Shown here piece after piece: positions 31,414 through 60,576 of a stretch of 64,000 nt of DNA; the first letter of the stretch is position 1, and each line of letters begins with the position of its first letter. The stretch spans positions 1 through 64,000 of the forward strand of contig CAMDDZ010000008.1 of assembly GCA_945893145.1 (NCBI GenBank), read 5' to 3'. The translations under genes and the position numbers were made by a program. This DNA is from Rhodoplanes serenus (GTDB lineage: Bacteria; Pseudomonadota; Alphaproteobacteria; Rhizobiales; Xanthobacteraceae). The notes beneath the pieces were generated by a model that saw nothing but the letters and a program-made list of their open reading frames with translations, was not told where the DNA came from and did not search any database.

Positions 31414-31423
31414 GGAAAACACC

Positions 31424-32401
31424 ATGACGCTGCCACGCCGCCGTTTCCTGCAAGTGGCCGCAAGCGCGTTGGCGCTTCCTGCGCTTTCGCGGTCCGCGCA
31501 GGCCGAAACCTATCCGGCGCGGCCGGTGCGGCTGGTCGTGCCATTCGCGCCGGCCGGCGCATCCGACATCATCGCGCGCTTGGTCGGGCCTGCGCTGTCG
31601 GAGCGGCTCGGCCAGCAAGTCGTCGTCGAGAACCGGTCCGGCGCCGGCGGCAACATCGGCACCGAGAGTGTCGTGCGCGCGACGGCGGACGGCTACACGC
31701 TGCTGGTGGTCGGCGGCTTCAACGCGATCAACACCACGCTCTATGACAAGCTCAGCTTCGTATTCGCCCGCGACATCGTTCCGGTCGCGGGTATCGCCCG
31801 CATGCCCAATGTCATGCTGGTGTTGCCGACGTTTCCTGCGGCAACCGTGCCGGAGTTCATCGCCTACGCGAAGGCCAATCCCGAGAAAATCAATTTCGGC
31901 TCGGGCGGCACCGGGTCGCCGACCCATCTGTCGGGCGAGCTATTCAAGATGATGACCAGCATCAACATGGTGCATCTGCCGTATCGCGGCGCTGGGCCGG
32001 CACTGATCGACCTCTTGGGCGGACAACTCCAGACCATGTTTCCGACGCTGCCGTCGGCGATCGGCTATATCCGCGGCGGCAAGCTGCGCGCCCTTGGGGT
32101 GACACCCGCCAAGCGCTCTGAGGCGGTGCCGGACGTTCCAAGCATTGGCGAATTCGTGCCGGGCTACGATGCCGGCGACTGGTACGGCGTCGGCGCGCCG
32201 GCCGGCACGCCGCCCGAGATCGTCGAACGACTCAACAAGGATATCAATGCGGTCCTCACCGATCCGGAAATGAAATCGCGTTTGACCGAGCTCGGCATGA
32301 CGCCCATTCCGGCTTCGCAAACCGAATTCACGCGCTTCATTGCCGACGAAACCGAGAAGTGGAGCAAGGTGGTCAAGTTCTCCGGCGCCAAGCCGGATTG
32401 A
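31424..32401 (+). CDS. Bug-family (TctC-like) periplasmic solute-binding protein, Tat-type signal
   Basis: The 325-residue tripartite tricarboxylate transporter receptor starts with a twin-arginine-like signal (PRRRFLQVAASALALPALS). The Bug signature follows: YPARPVRLVVPFAPAGASDIIARLVGPALSERLGQQVVVENRSGAGGNIGTESV. PYRGAGPALIDLLGGQLQTMF and a C-terminal TPIPASQTEFTRF are also typical. No TctA/TctB membrane genes are nearby, so it is an orphan receptor. It is probably co-transcribed with the hydratase gene, so its ligand may be that enzyme's substrate. Confidence 0.93.
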   Translation: MTLPRRRFLQVAASALALPALSRSAQAETYPARPVRLVVPFAPAGASDIIARLVGPALSERLGQQVVVENRSGAGGNIGTESVVRATADGYTLLVVGGFNAINTTLYDKLSFVFARDIVPVAGIARMPNVMLVLPTFPAATVPEFIAYAKANPEKINFGSGGTGSPTHLSGELFKMMTSINMVHLPYRGAGPALIDLLGGQLQTMFPTLPSAIGYIRGGKLRALGVTPAKRSEAVPDVPSIGEFVPGYDAGDWYGVGAPAGTPPEIVERLNKDINAVLTDPEMKSRLTELGMTPIPASQTEFTRFIADETEKWSKVVKFSGAKPD

Positions 32402-32435
32402 CTGTCACCAAAGTCGCCAGAGCGGCCGCACCCGC

Positions 32436-34289
32436 TCAATGCGGAAATGCGAGATTGTGGTTTTCCGCAGCAAGCCGCCAGCTTTCGACGTCGCCTAGCA
32501 TGGCATCGGCAGCCGCAGCCGCATGATAGCGCAAAGCCGCCAGATCGGACTTCTCGTTTTGGATGGCGCGGATCAGCTGCTGCAGCGTTGTATCAGTACG
32601 CCGCGAGCGCCGGCAGATGCCCTCGAAATCGCCAAAAATTCGAATGCCGTAGGCTGCTGTTGCGGCGGCAGGTAGCCAGACGCTCAGGAACAGGAGCGCT
32701 TCGGGTAGTAGATGCAGGAGGTAAAATTTTTCTAAGAAAGAATGGTATGGCCAAACACACAGGGCAACCACCGCGACGATAATCGTCCCAATAAACAGCC
32801 AGAAGCCGATGCGCTCCAGCCAGCGCTCCAGATGCTCCATGCGCTGGGCATTCGACAAATGATAACGGCATTGATCTCGCAGCAGTTCGACCATGGCAAA
32901 TCGCGCCGCGGCGACCCACTCGGAAGCAAGCCACCCCGAGCGTAAGCCCTGCTCGCGCAAAATCGCGCGGGCGTACCAACCGGTCCAGGTCGGTTCCTGG
33001 ATCGGGAAAAACGTTGCGGGGCGGATGCCCAGCATCCAATGCAACAACACGGCGCGCAGGCGCTCGGCGACTTCGCGCGCTTCGAACCAGCGGCGGTGCC
33101 ACCGTCGCCGCCGGCCAAAATTGGTATTCACCACAATCAAGCCGATGCAAACCATCTCTAAGAACACCAGAGCCGGCTTGTTTCCGGGAAACAGAACAGA
33201 AAGCGCAGCAAACATCACCGCCAACGATGCCAGCACAAAATTGCTCACGAAGGCGCTACGGTAGGCCAGCGCGAAATGCGAGCCGATGGCGTCGGCCCAG
33301 CCGTAGGCCGTCGCCATCGTGCTGACGTCGCCGCCGCGCGCCGGATCGGAGAACGCGGTCAATCGCGCCGCAAGGATGAAGGGCTCGGTCGATGACAGGT
33401 CCTTGAACAGGAACCGCCGGCCGGACAGGACCATCAGGAGGGGAAATTCAGGACGGAAATGGAATCGCCTGCTTCGCTCACCGAGGTAATCGGAGAGCGA
33501 CTTGCGCTCATCGGGATTGACCGGCGGGCGGACCAGGCGATCGATCAAATGCCGCAGCAAGTCCCCGCTGAGAATCTGGCGCGGCGCATCCTCGATGGCG
33601 TTGACCGAAACCGGGAACTCGGTGAGTCCGCTCCAGCGGAGGCAGGTGGCTTCTGCCTCGGGCGGTCCAGCGCTGCTCTTTTCGTTGTTGACGTGAATAT
33701 GAATGACCGGAATGCCCTGACGCGCCGCAACGCTGAGCATCTCGGTTGTGCCGCCGCGGCCGCGCGAGGGGCCGCCGTCCCAGACCGCCAGCAGAATGTC
33801 CGCTTGGCTCAACACAGTAAGGCCGGTCGCTTCGTACGATTGTGGCTCTTTCCGGCTGCCTTCGGCGTCGGAATCGCCCGGCAGCCGCCGTTCGCCGGGC
33901 AACTCCAGGCAGGCGTTGGCGCGACCGACCAATTCGCTGAGTTTTGTCTTGGCGCTGTCGGCTTTGAAATCCTTTGCATACTCCTCGGTTGCAAACGGGA
34001 GCGCCGCGGCCAGCGTGAAGCCGCGCGCAGCGCGTTCGAGCGCGATCTCGGCTGCCATTGTGTCGGCGCCGTCCGCGAGCCCGGTTACAATCGAAAATGA
34101 CGGCGATTGAGGGCTGAAAAACGCGCGGTACGTTTCGTGCGCCTGTGCCGTCGCAACGGCGATTTCGTCCAACACCTTCGCAATCTCGGCCTTGACCCAC
34201 CCTTGAGCCGCTGGCGGCAGACGGTCGGCACGATGGCCGATGACCCCGATTGCCAGGGCCAGACGAGGTTTTGGAGGGTGTTCGCTCAC
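32436..34289 (-). CDS. SLOG-like nucleotide-binding domain fused to SLATT-like transmembrane region
   Basis: The 617-residue protein is not a housekeeping type. Residues 10-200 form a Rossmann-like domain with IGVIGHR (14-20), VTGLADGAD (68-76), ALPFATEEYAKDF (96-108) and ADILLAVWDG...RGRGGT (163-181). This pattern is the SLOG (DprA/LOG-like) superfamily, thought to bind nucleotides or NAD-type ligands. Two hydrophobic pairs follow (about 349-391 and 494-545), each leading into charged helices, as in SLATT modules. SLOG-SLATT combinations have been predicted as nucleotide-sensing membrane effectors in antiphage conflict systems. It is flanked by a Bug gene and tldD, with no nuclease or cyclase partner. 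The domain calls are from motif reading only. Confidence 0.7.
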   Translation of the reverse strand: MSEHPPKPRLALAIGVIGHRADRLPPAAQGWVKAEIAKVLDEIAVATAQAHETYRAFFSPQSPSFSIVTGLADGADTMAAEIALERAARGFTLAAALPFATEEYAKDFKADSAKTKLSELVGRANACLELPGERRLPGDSDAEGSRKEPQSYEATGLTVLSQADILLAVWDGGPSRGRGGTTEMLSVAARQGIPVIHIHVNNEKSSAGPPEAEATCLRWSGLTEFPVSVNAIEDAPRQILSGDLLRHLIDRLVRPPVNPDERKSLSDYLGERSRRFHFRPEFPLLMVLSGRRFLFKDLSSTEPFILAARLTAFSDPARGGDVSTMATAYGWADAIGSHFALAYRSAFVSNFVLASLAVMFAALSVLFPGNKPALVFLEMVCIGLIVVNTNFGRRRRWHRRWFEAREVAERLRAVLLHWMLGIRPATFFPIQEPTWTGWYARAILREQGLRSGWLASEWVAAARFAMVELLRDQCRYHLSNAQRMEHLERWLERIGFWLFIGTIIVAVVALCVWPYHSFLEKFYLLHLLPEALLFLSVWLPAAATAAYGIRIFGDFEGICRRSRRTDTTLQQLIRAIQNEKSDLAALRYHAAAAADAMLGDVESWRLAAENHNLAFPH

Positions 34290-34446
34290 GGCAAACTCGC
34301 AAGGCGCAGGATGATTGGGACGATATTGTTACGCGCTTCAGTTGCATAGGGAGCCAGCCCTCGCAGATTCAGCATTCAGGACCTATGTTGCGGCAGACTT
34401 CGATCATCAGGGACTCGCCCCAGGAACTCGCCCCAGGAATCGCCCC

Positions 34447-57630: not shown

Positions 57631-58048
57631 GGCGTCGAAGTTGGGGGATGTCCGTACCCTCGGATCATCAGTCCGAGGGGATGGAGCGCCGGTCGACGCC
57701 ACATCTCGATCACGCCTTATCCGCCGATGGATTACTCCATCGGGGACTAACCGGCGTGGCGCCCAAATTCGTGGGCGCGTCGCCGGCCGACGCTCCATCG
57801 CGGCGATTTTGGGCGTCTCGGAACCGTGACTGACAAGAACCGGCAGCGAGCTCTCGCCCGCCCTGATCCCGGTGGCTTACGCCGCCGTTCATCCGGTCCC
57901 CGTGTCACCCAAAACTGGGCGCCCCTCGTAGTAGGGGGGACAGTTACCCGAGGCCTCCCGGGGATTGGTTTACGAAGCCAATCCGCAGGCGCCGCGTCCC
58001 ACCCCATTCAAATGACGTCTCATGAGAACGCCCTCGGGAGGGTGGGAC
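57631..58048. ncRNA. Candidate structured RNA: chain of stem-loops, no ORF
   Basis: No credible protein frame exists here, but consecutive stems do. GGCGTCGA/TCGACGCC (57631-57700) encloses CCCTCGGA/TCCGAGGG (57657-57679). CCGATGGA/TCCATCGG lies at 57724-57743. A 13-bp two-part stem (57751-57786) has an AATTCG loop. CCCA/TGGG and CCCCT/AGGGG lie at 57908-57937. GGATTGG/CCAATCC lies at 57962-57984, and GTCCCACCC/GGGTGGGAC closes at 57996-58048. Strand is undecided. It may be a ncRNA, a mobile-element RNA of the HEARO/omega type, or a string of DNA palindromes. No similarity search was possible. Confidence 0.5.
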
Positions 58049-58194
58049 AGAAGGAATATAATCAATATTAGGAATAAAGTCAAGATCGTCCAAATTCCGG
58101 TAGTGGCCAGTTTGGATGAGGCGAAGAATGACCAACCCTGAATTGCAAATCTTGCGCTATTCTTGTCCTTCGCCGGCGTGGCGTGGAGCAACCG

Positions 58195-59141
58195 ATGGAC
58201 GTGTCGTTACCGCATTTCGTGGAATACGACGTGCATGGCCACCCGTCGTCACGGCATTGGCTCAGAGCCTCATCTCCAATGAGAAATTGGCTAAAGAGGC
58301 CGTTCTTCTGTTGGAAGCGTATATCCCCGGCCTCGTTATTGAGGCGACCGCTGTATCGGTTCGACGGGTCTCTCAAGACTCGCCCCTCAAACAGGCGTTT
58401 GTCGTTGCGATTGTCGCGGCTTTCCAGCCGAAGCTTGAGCGTGATGTGCCGGCCATAATCACCGATCTAACGGGCTACCAAATCCCGCCGCACTACAACA
58501 CGCTCATCACAGTGTTGGTGATGATGATTGCTGTCTATGGGATCAGCAAGGTCATTGATCTGTTGTTCCCTGGCCGCAAGAAGGGCGCGCTAGATGAAAA
58601 TTATAGTGCCCTTACCGTTGTGGCTGGCGATCTTATTCAAGTCCCCGCCAGCACAATCGACGCCGCCGTTCGCGCGCGATACAGCGGCAAAAAGCCAAGC
58701 CAGATCAGCTCATTTGTGAAGGGTTTTTTTGCACCTGCGGCGGGACAGCCGGGAGCAAAAATAGTCGGCGGCCACGGCATCGAAATAACGCCAGCGGCCA
58801 TCGCGCAAATACCGCAGCTTGCGTTGCCAGAGATCGTGGAAGAGGAAGAGAAAACAGAAAGTCAGTTCGAAAATAATCAGAGGATCATTGTCCACGCGAT
58901 GGACCGCGATCGGGGACGGTCGGGTTGGGCGGGTCACATCCCGGCGTTATTCGAAGATCGGGTTCCCATGAAGCTTGATAAATCGATTGAGCCGGAAACC
59001 TTGTTTACGAAAACAGAAGTCACGGGGGATGTGCTAATCGTTTACAAGGAAAACGATGCGGGCGTGCGCTCACCTTCTGAAATACACCTGCTGAGGATCA
59101 AGCATCCCCCGAGGGCCAAGAAGCGAAAAGCCGCTCGCTAA
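58195..59141 (+). CDS. Unrecognised membrane-anchored protein (one-base frameshift)
   Basis: No family is recognised. The frame starting at ATG 58195 (after GGAG) gives MDVSLPHFVEYDVHGHP. It then continues in another frame as VVTALAQSLISNEKLAKEAVLLLEAYIPG... to the stop at 59141. One extra C in the CCC run 58242-58244 joins them, for about 315 residues. One helix is visible (YNTLITVLVMMIAVYGISKVIDLLF). Polar domains follow, including an acidic stretch EIVEEEEKTE and a Lys/Arg-rich end (KHPPRAKKRKAAR). Base composition is lower in GC than the neighbours, and an IS1-type remnant abuts its 3' end, both suggesting acquired DNA. Confidence 0.6.
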
Positions 59142-59143
59142 AG

Positions 59144-59344
59144 TCAGCGGGTCGCTTCCCACGATTCCAGCATTTCAACCACGTCGCTCATCTCCCAAAG
59201 GCGCTTGCTGACGCCTGCGGCCATCGCAGGGCTAACCTTGAGCGTTCGGTGGATCCGCACGAAATTGTAATAGAGAAAATGCAAGCTCATCGCGCGCGCG
59301 TGGTTTTCGACCTTTTTGCTAAAGCCATTGGTCAAGCGCGTCAT
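59144..59344 (-). pseudogene. IS1-family transposase C-terminal remnant
   Basis: About 66 codons remain (MTRLTNGFSKKVENHARAMSLHFLYYNFVRIHRTLKVSPAMAAGVSKRLWEMSDVVEMLES). They match the C-terminus of IS1-like DDE transposases of rhizobia (TRLTNAFSKK...YNFVRIHKTL...SPAMAAGV). The catalytic core and N-terminus are missing: upstream sequence runs into the MetE-like gene. The natural stop is retained. The 3' end of the unknown gene lies two bases away, in convergent orientation. Confidence 0.8.
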
Positions 59345-59382
59345 GCAGATTCCTGCACGACGCCAGCAAACGAAACGCTCAG

Positions 59383-60576
59383 CTACTTCCACAGCGCCTT
59401 TGTTGCGAGCCTCGCGCCTTCAGAAAGCGCCGCAAGCTTGGCCCAAGCGATCTGCGGATGCACCCGCCCGCCGAGGCCACAGTCGGTCGAGGCGATGACA
59501 TTCTCGCGGCCGACCGTCTTGGCGAAGCGCACGATGCGGTCGGCCACCAGCTCCGGATGCTCCAACACGTTGGTGGCGTGACTGACCACGCCCGGGATGA
59601 TGACCTTGCCGTCTGGAAGCTTGGTGCTTTGCCAGACTTTCCACTCGTGCTCGTGGCGCACGTTGCCGGCCTCGACCGAGTAGCCCTGCGCCTTCACCTT
59701 GAGCAGCAGGTCAACCACATCCTTGAGCTCGACGTCGCCTTTGTGCGGGCCGTGCCAGCTGCCCCAGCAGATGTGGAAACGGACGCGATCCTCAGGGATG
59801 CCTTGCAGCGCGTGGTTGACAGCCTCGACCTGGAACGCCGCCCATTTGCGATAACCGGCTTTGTCGTCGTTCATCGAGAACCACCAGTCGTAGATGTCGA
59901 CCAGCGCCGGGTCGTCGATCTGAAGGATGAAGCCGGCATCGACGATGGCCTTGTATTCCTCGCGGATCGCCTCGGCCAACGCGATGGTGTAGTCCTCGGC
60001 GTTTTTGTAATAGGCGTTGGGAAGAATCTGCAGCGTCGCGGGCGACACCGCTGTCATGAACACCTCTTCGACGCCGCCGGCTCGGGCTGCGGCGGCCATG
60101 TTGTCGATGTCGCGCTTGATGGCGGCGTGGCCGACGTATTTGACGGGTTCGGTGCAGGTCAGACCGTAGAGCTGCGCGCTGCTGGAGCCGCTCTGCCGGG
60201 CCGCGCTCGCGGCGGCGCTCGCCTCGGCGGCGTAGAATTCAGCGAAGTCCTTGCGCTCCTTGCTGCCGAAGGTCCAGGCGGCGCGGCCCTTCTTGGCGTG
60301 CTCCTCGCGCAATTGGAAGCCTTCGAGGCGAGGATAGACGTACGACCACCACGCGCCGAAATCCATCGCGCTCCGCATCGCCTTGCCGTACTCGCCGTCG
60401 TTGATGACATCGATGCCGGACTCGGATTGCTGGCGGACGATGCCGCCCACAGCCGCGCGCAGCCGTGGCTGCAGCTTGTCGTCAGGTGCATTGGCCGCAT
60501 AAAGCGCCATGAGGTCGTCCGGCCGTGGCAGACTGCCGACGTGAGTGGTGAGAATCCGCCGATCGCTTCGCTTCAC
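59383..60576 (-). CDS. MetE C-terminal-like cobalamin-independent methionine synthase family protein
   Basis: The 397-residue protein corresponds to only the C-terminal catalytic half of MetE. Zinc ligands are visible: His267 and Cys269 (RFHICWGSWHGPH), Glu301 (YSVEAGN) and Cys365 (STDCGLGGR). The N-terminal folate-binding barrel is absent. Such short proteins are common and may use other methyl donors or demethylate thioethers, so methionine synthase activity is not assured. The start MKRSDRRILTTHVGSLPRP is typical. Its 3' end adjoins the IS remnant but appears intact. Confidence 0.88.
   Translation of the reverse strand: MKRSDRRILTTHVGSLPRPDDLMALYAANAPDDKLQPRLRAAVGGIVRQQSESGIDVINDGEYGKAMRSAMDFGAWWSYVYPRLEGFQLREEHAKKGRAAWTFGSKERKDFAEFYAAEASAAASAARQSGSSSAQLYGLTCTEPVKYVGHAAIKRDIDNMAAAARAGGVEEVFMTAVSPATLQILPNAYYKNAEDYTIALAEAIREEYKAIVDAGFILQIDDPALVDIYDWWFSMNDDKAGYRKWAAFQVEAVNHALQGIPEDRVRFHICWGSWHGPHKGDVELKDVVDLLLKVKAQGYSVEAGNVRHEHEWKVWQSTKLPDGKVIIPGVVSHATNVLEHPELVADRIVRFAKTVGRENVIASTDCGLGGRVHPQIAWAKLAALSEGARLATKALWK

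Follow-up and report, generated by a model that had tools for sequence, protein, structure and literature searches.

The window, as we call the whole 64-kb stretch of DNA analysed here, carries on its minus strand an intact ORF encoding a protein of 617 residues. Such a protein had been proposed in a preliminary description that omitted the strand; ORF reading and translation placed it at exactly 32436-34289, with a GTG start at 34289, and reading of the plus strand over this interval in the given frame runs into stops. A chance ORF was ruled out by homologues covering the full length, with identities of up to 45%. The motifs quoted earlier are all present (GVIGHR at residues 15-20, TGLADGAD at 69-76, LLAVWDG at 166-172 and RGRGGT at 176-181). 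Conservation was judged from a 73-sequence alignment, composed of the window protein and 72 of the 80 best relatives kept from the 182 obtained in a scan of GTDB contigs (L043, L050, L074, L095, L097, L104, L115 and L118 are omitted). Invariant in this alignment are G18, H19, G74, D76, P98, A168, W170, D171 and G180, and further R405, E409, R412, R445, Q473, P540 and W604.

The gene is adjoined by a divergent tldD (ATG at about 34447) and, on its other side, by a gene for a TctC-family binding protein (31424-32401; Pfam E 1.7e-73), both of which are ordinary genes. No cyclase or nuclease gene was recognised beside it when the ORFs of the window were read by eye, in line with the earlier view of a gene placed between unrelated neighbours, and a search with a TIR profile found no TIR gene within the 64 kb. 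Elsewhere in the window, the G+C content dips to 0.568, compared to about 0.64, at 58000-60000 around a short ORF (59144-59392) which by eye resembles a transposase remnant.

Table 1. Coordinates of the gene, its predicted domains and its genomic spot (residues are those of the 617-aa protein)
Feature	Coordinates	Strand	Evidence
Whole gene: SLOG and four-transmembrane protein, 617 aa	32436..34289	-	ORF, translation, full-length homologues, model
SLOG (Rossmann-like) domain, residues about 10-255, predicted nucleotide sensor	33525..34262	-	VIA-align, Foldseek, column conservation
First helix-TM-TM-helix unit, residues about 323-424, SLATT/DUF4231-like	33018..33323	-	SLATT_1 and DUF4231 matches
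Second helix-TM-TM-helix unit, residues about 456-578, no family match	32556..32924	-	Model helices, alignment columns
Variable spot between hydratase-like gene and tldD	31414..34446	.	tblastn synteny, gap contents

An AlphaFold2 model built from the 73 sequences was obtained with a mean pLDDT of 93.2, a pTM of 0.92 and 0 residues under 50; a single-sequence model of the SLOG part (pLDDT 41) was not used. Foldseek against the PDB returned YpsA (2nx2, E 2.2e-4) as the single match at E<=0.001. YpsA was also the closest structure by VIA-align (Z 16.8, 2.6 A over 164 residues), followed by DprA (Z 13.7), ShosA (11.6), the Moco carrier protein (11.3), LOG proteins (9.8) and TRPM2 (8.6), while the SLOG domain of BcThsA in complex with 3'cADPR gave a moderate match (Z 7.7, 4.3 A over 153 residues). 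Because of these fold matches, the N-terminal residues are assigned, on the model, to a SLOG domain of YpsA-like shape, with the motifs GHR (18-20), GAD (74-76), WDG (170-172) and GGT (179-181). The SLOG-like domain suggested earlier is therefore supported by its predicted fold, without a match to a curated profile: no Pfam SLOG, LOG or YpsA model was found at E<=0.001 in any of the 73 relatives. The window protein matched Pfam DprA at E 0.085 and, in PADLOC, ShosA at E 0.0079 as its sole match. A phmmer search of PDB sequences gave three cytochrome P450 matches only (E about 0.008), which were discounted.

LOG phosphoribohydrolases carry the catalytic motif PGGxGTxxE. Its glutamate is absent in all 73 sequences, as judged by the column of residue 184, which is occupied by I (39), V (19), M (7), T (6) and L (2). 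Both a sensor and a hydrolase role are proposed for SLOG domains in passages of PMC9503650, which also place cADPr-sensing members in the YpsA-like SLOG clade.

The C-terminal half is helical in the model, with long helices at 323-366, 368-395, 397-418, 456-519, 528-553, 555-578 and 583-608. Hydropathy predicts transmembrane (TM) segments at 351-369/373-391 and 494-512/524-542, so that both hydrophobic pairs reported earlier are present, each ending in charged helices. Across the 73 sequences, four such segments are predicted in 48, three in 20 and five in 5. The first pair is followed by an invariant R405xxxE409xxR412; the second unit includes the conserved P540 and, after the second pair, a strongly conserved GIR..GDF....RS motif (548-562).

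Profile searches matched the first unit to SLATT-type families. On the window protein itself the matches stay below the curated cut-offs: NCBIfam SLATT_1 at 331-424 (E 4.1e-5, 23.5 bits, cut-off 41), Pfam DUF4231 at 330-419 (E 1.7e-4, 22.4 bits, cut-off 24.7) and NCBIfam SLATT_3 (E 5.8e-4); Pfam SLATT_3 gave E 0.06. Across the family, counting the window protein, SLATT_1 is matched at E<=0.01 in 67 of the 73 sequences (best 1.3e-17) and Pfam DUF4231 at E<=0.001 in 42 of 73. Judged by these profiles, the first helix pair appears to belong to SLATT/DUF4231 as a divergent member. Of the doubled helix pairs noted earlier, the first is thus supported as SLATT-like, but a second SLATT repeat could not be demonstrated: no Pfam or NCBIfam SLATT profile has the second pair as its best stretch of the window protein, and hhalign comparison of the profiles of the two halves of the membrane part revealed no significant similarity indicative of an internal duplication (P 0.14). 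Because of this last result, 'doubled SLATT' is a topological description rather than a demonstrated duplication. VIA-align gave middling helical matches only for the membrane half among the chains compared, and nothing firm was drawn from these.

The gene is accessory. Protein searches left all 10 of its 10 congeners (six being less than 90% complete) without a match; they matched 5 other genomes of the 60 relatives searched, SLOG-only in two cases, and 12 of 385 genomes of the class, its own genome counted. A family profile matched 27 of 398 phylum genomes and 27 of 385 class genomes, many with the SLOG part only; 10 of the class matches have E below 1e-50. By tblastn, all nine of the nine congeners which have this tldD carry other DNA and no copy of the gene in the spot, the stretch from the hydratase-like gene to tldD being 0.8-3.7 kb long with ORFs differing between genomes. 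Two related genomes (L025 and L043) have the gene at this same cox-linked locus, where it neighbours tldD and/or ialB, on the ialB side in L043. The place is thus shared and the gene patchy, as the accessory distribution expected in the preliminary description, rather than fixed housekeeping synteny, would have it.

Record titles of the best 80 of the 182 relatives name Alpha-, Beta- and Gammaproteobacteria, Acidobacteria, Dadabacteria, Gemmatimonadetes, Verrucomicrobiia, Planctomycetota and others. A full-length member of 708 aa lies on a phage-like IMG/VR contig, beside ORFs read by eye as tail and endolysin genes; in the other five IMG/VR relatives the match is restricted to the SLOG part. 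Members were also found on Caballeronia plasmids, one beside a TIR gene. In one genome (G255) the gene is broken by a stop, and in another (G093) a C-terminal remnant alone was matched.

To describe the neighbourhoods, genes were predicted around 97 family loci, including the window, and the neighbours were clustered; since a simple ORF caller was used, some neighbours are spurious ORFs. The 97 loci include three split or SLOG-only loci (L035, L037, L038), which are outside the identity clusters, and some duplicate fetches (e.g. L026/L045, L028/L070, L031/L068, L032/L076), which the clusters correct; L039, with no family ORF, is outside the set. A TIR profile, built up from six seed sequences that all scored above the Pfam TIR_2 cut-off, detected 56 TIR genes in 54 of the 97 loci. 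The linkage was considered as a possible artefact of this profile; all 56 genes match Pfam TIR_2 itself at E<=0.01, some below the curated cut-off, as is the case for the Marinicaulis-type partner.

TIR genes are concentrated next to the family gene. At a distance of one gene they occupy 34 of 187 positions, at two genes 11 of 175 and at three genes 7 of 167, giving 52 of 529 within three genes. Farther out, they fill 2 of 156 positions four genes away and 2 of 571 at distances of five to eleven. Oversampling of near-identical loci was considered as a source of this signal and was handled by clusters at 50-95% identity and by a tree. With one locus per 60%-identity cluster, TIR genes are found at 29 of 301 positions within three genes and at 0 of 344 at five to eleven (Fisher 1.2e-10); 29 of 56 clusters have one within three genes and 18 of 56 within one gene. 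In 43 of the 97 loci, including the window, no TIR gene lies in the stretch examined. Among the 34 adjacent TIR genes, 25 are on the same strand as the family gene, 22 of these within 170 bp, and 9 are on the opposite strand. Consistently, in random samples of neighbours, TIR_2 was found in 13 of 110 near genes (taken from 285 genes of 150-900 aa at distance 1-2); for 110 distant genes, all at least five genes away, it is not among the 25 families listed and so occurs in no more than 2 of them.

On a tree of 88 members (L028, L031, L032, L035, L037, L038, L045, L097 and L118 omitted), the presence of a TIR gene requires 22 changes, at least 16 of them forced by well-supported branches, and the pairing has therefore been made or lost repeatedly. 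The label is also clustered, since 2 of 500 shuffles need as few changes, showing that part of the linkage is inherited. The nearest kin of the window protein include two members (L040, L041) that both have an adjacent TIR gene.

The same was observed in new genomes from the phylum search. Four of seven full-length members (L186-L192, of which L190 is from a congener of a first-set member) have a TIR gene within 1 kb, with gaps of 78, 271, 888 and 12 bp; the TIR of L187 is a weak Pfam match (24.1 bits, E 1e-4), and the other three exceed the cut-off. When three more distant proteins with SLOG and TM segments (L193, L194, L197) are added, the count is 5 of 10, and in L197 the family and TIR genes overlap by 4 bases. 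The family is thus strongly associated with TIR-domain genes, and the TIR protein as its partner is the main new finding. The 'self-contained one-gene system' of the preliminary description is rejected as the default reading because of this linkage, which recurs in clusters and new members alike.

The partner proteins are diverse. Their Pfam tails include TPR_2 in 25 of the 56, FGE-sulfatase in 6 and WD40 in 3, with DUF4189 and nSTAND1 tails in single TIR proteins scanned. At the alignment column which we take to be that of the catalytic glutamate, 43 of the 56 have Glu, 8 Gln and 3 Ala, Glu being missing in 13 overall.

TIR genes are also found elsewhere in carrier genomes. TIR_2 genes number ten in the window genome; its ten congeners, some of them incomplete, have five between them, spread over four genomes. 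Several of the window genome's ten resemble TIR-FGE-sulfatase proteins. One of the ten, at 71772-72128 on the contig that carries the window, is of the TIR-FGE type, as is the partner in Marinicaulis loci. TIR_2 was found in 17 of 18 carrier genomes, with none in G130. Within the class sample, 8 of the 10 full-length carriers have it, compared with 70 of the 375 remaining genomes (P 6.6e-5); among carriers with no adjacent TIR gene the figure is 5 of 7, compared with the same 70 of 375 (P 0.004), both comparisons being uncontrolled for genome size and kinship.

Several known systems share parts of this arrangement. In type I Thoeris, in which, as described in passages of PMC11204291 and PMC12948488, the TIR product binds a SLOG domain and the SIR2 is switched on, a TIR gene (ThsB) lies beside a SLOG-bearing effector (ThsA, SIR2-SLOG). 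A TIR gene beside the effector is likewise found in much of the family, by the cluster counts given above, though not at the window copy. Unlike in ThsA, however, the SLOG domain of the family sits N-terminal to four TM helices and is far closer to YpsA, and no SIR2 or macro domain was detected by Pfam in the window protein (to E 10) or in the 73 relatives (E<=0.001). The TM-macro ThsA of type II Thoeris resembles the effector proposed here in being a membrane effector that reads a TIR signal and, according to passages of PMC11204291 and PMC12948488, is thought to disrupt the membrane, but its sensor is a macro domain in place of SLOG, and the family has four TM helices with a SLATT unit. The 2TM effectors of the SLATT/DUF4231 type, linked to CBASS, RT, TIR or GTPase genes, match the first helix pair and differ in the SLOG fusion and in the second conserved pair without a family match. 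YpsA (DUF1273) is the closest solved structure to the SLOG domain, although the solved chain has 178 residues and is without a membrane half. Finally, ADP-ribose-gated TRPM2, which has a TRP-type membrane domain and a NUDT9-H domain, also begins with a SLOG-type domain followed by a membrane half; the family has four TM helices and no NUDT9-H domain, and channel activity would be putative here. The best reading by analogy is that the family follows a Thoeris-like logic, in which a SLATT-type membrane unit would replace the SIR2 NADase, on a general plan resembling that of TRPM2.

Taken together, these results make it reasonably probable that the gene product is the membrane effector of a defence-type system based on TIR signalling. 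The protein is probably the cell-killing or pore-opening arm of an anti-virus alarm that uses a nucleotide signal. Such a system could start when phage infection, as the most likely trigger, activates a TIR protein through its sensor tail (TPR, WD40, nSTAND, FGE-sulfatase or other). By the biochemistry of TIR domains in other systems, it would convert NAD+ into an ADP-ribose-type signal, to which the cytosolic SLOG domain, whose fold rests on the model and on structural comparison, may then bind. The four-helix membrane half would in turn oligomerise or open, and the inner membrane would be permeabilised or depolarised, leading to growth stop or death. In the window genome the TIR partner would act in trans. 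Of the abortive-infection protein of the preliminary description, with sensor and effector fused, the combination of a sensor and a membrane effector in one chain remains the likeliest logic, but not its self-contained character.

Other functions can be proposed for the same architecture. A ligand-gated ion channel of ordinary physiology, serving ion or osmotic homeostasis, with a SLOG domain that reads a housekeeping nucleotide and TIR proteins acting as regulators or scaffolds, would fit the potassium-channel-like neighbours (clusters c7, in 7 loci, and c10, in 6) and the TRPM channels, which likewise join a SLOG-type N-terminus to a membrane half. The lack of the putative catalytic Glu in 13 of 56 TIRs and the housing of the gene at the tldD/ialB/cox locus in three loci (window, L025 and L043) point the same way. 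We nevertheless consider a physiological channel unlikely, given the patchy spread (0 of 10 congeners and 12 of 385 class genomes), the carriage of the gene by phage-like and plasmid DNA, and partner TIRs whose tails, frequently TPR and in some cases WD40 or STAND, are of a kind found in conflict systems.

A membrane-anchored enzyme that makes or destroys the signal, such as a LOG-like phosphoribohydrolase or a hydrolase of ADPR derivatives, is quite improbable: the SLOG superfamily does contain enzymes (LOG, Z 9.8), and passages of PMC9503650 list a hydrolase role among the proposals, but the Glu of the LOG motif is missing in 73 of 73 sequences and a membrane half with invariant charged residues answers no obvious need of an enzyme. 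We would give equally little weight to a solitary abortive-infection protein sensing infection by itself. The window copy without an adjacent TIR gene, and the 43 of 97 loci with none in the stretch examined, speak in its favour, whereas the TIR linkage is strong and repeated, and even carriers without an adjacent TIR gene are richer in TIR genes elsewhere, as in the 5 of 7 given above (P 0.004). A membrane effector paired with a TIR enzyme remains our preferred reading.

SLATT domains are called nucleotide-gated pore effectors, mostly by prediction. The ingredients of such a system and their general association are said to have been known already from a 2015 comparative-genomics paper by Burroughs and colleagues. 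In passages of the papers cited, the predicted role of SLATT is that of an ADPr-regulated effector acting on membrane permeability (PMC9503650; see also PMC7159879), TIR-SLATT neighbourhoods are described in phages (PMC9503650), phage defence by DRT10 requires a SLATT gene (PMC12632851), DRT9 sometimes has one (PMC12483538), and DUF4231 is counted among the domains enriched in defence islands (PMC10799925). Searches of open-access papers turned up no description of a TIR-linked SLOG-SLATT-4TM family, which is weak evidence of absence, as they leave out most of the subscription literature, papers on further Thoeris types included. In the simplest reading, the family would be the missing combination, in which TIR makes the signal, SLOG reads it and the SLATT-bearing membrane half acts. 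One chain joins a SLOG sensor of clear structure to a membrane unit of the SLATT type, and it is paired with TIR genes repeatedly across the tree. The family therefore offers a compact two-gene test for the activation of a SLOG-gated bacterial membrane effector by a TIR-made ADP-ribose derivative. If this is true, TIR immunity would gain a channel branch, and ADP-ribose-gated TRPM2 a plausible prokaryotic parallel.

The neighbourhoods had also been proposed as a place to look for defence islands. PADLOC matched the 110 near and the 110 distant genes alike: TIR-type and phospholipase models lead near the gene (25 of 57 families listed), and distant genes also matched, some of them strongly, such as SspH, Csm3 and Csm4 (25 of 46 families listed). 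A classical defence island around the family loci is thus not indicated by this comparison. The near-gene matches listed comprise E1-E2, TIR, SAVED-TIR and phospholipase models with no cyclase among them, and no CD-NTase/SMODS cyclase is among the 25 Pfam families listed for the 110 near genes.

Other neighbours recur. Potassium-channel-like genes form clusters c7 (L088, L093, L096, L102, L109, L034 and L035) and c10 (L058, L064, L067, L071, L111 and L117), some of these loci having no TIR gene; one member scanned from each cluster gave TrkA-N and Ion_trans_2. Genes for patatin-like phospholipases (cluster c15) lie next to or near the family gene in five loci (L034, L046, L075, L108 and L114), and the sampled near genes include three with a Pfam Patatin match and three matched by phospholipase effector models of PADLOC. 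In three Dadabacteria loci (L081, L086 and L091), a diverged family paralogue is located directly upstream of the main copy, with a TIR gene downstream. This paralogue has 617 aa in L086 and L091, and its L091 copy shows four TM segments and the motif RGLAEGLR; the paralogue and the main copy may form a heteromeric pair.

A second SLOG family, with the SLOG-like part in mid-chain, was detected by profile (L195, L196, L198-L202, L204 and L023:4929-6695). The three members scanned in full (L201, L202 and L023) all have a TPR-S N-terminus, and two of them match a class III nucleotide cyclase, one just below the cut-off. A TIR gene is present, in the stretch examined, in 6 of the 8 listed L195-L204 loci of this family, which points to a broader range of SLOG proteins as partners of TIR.
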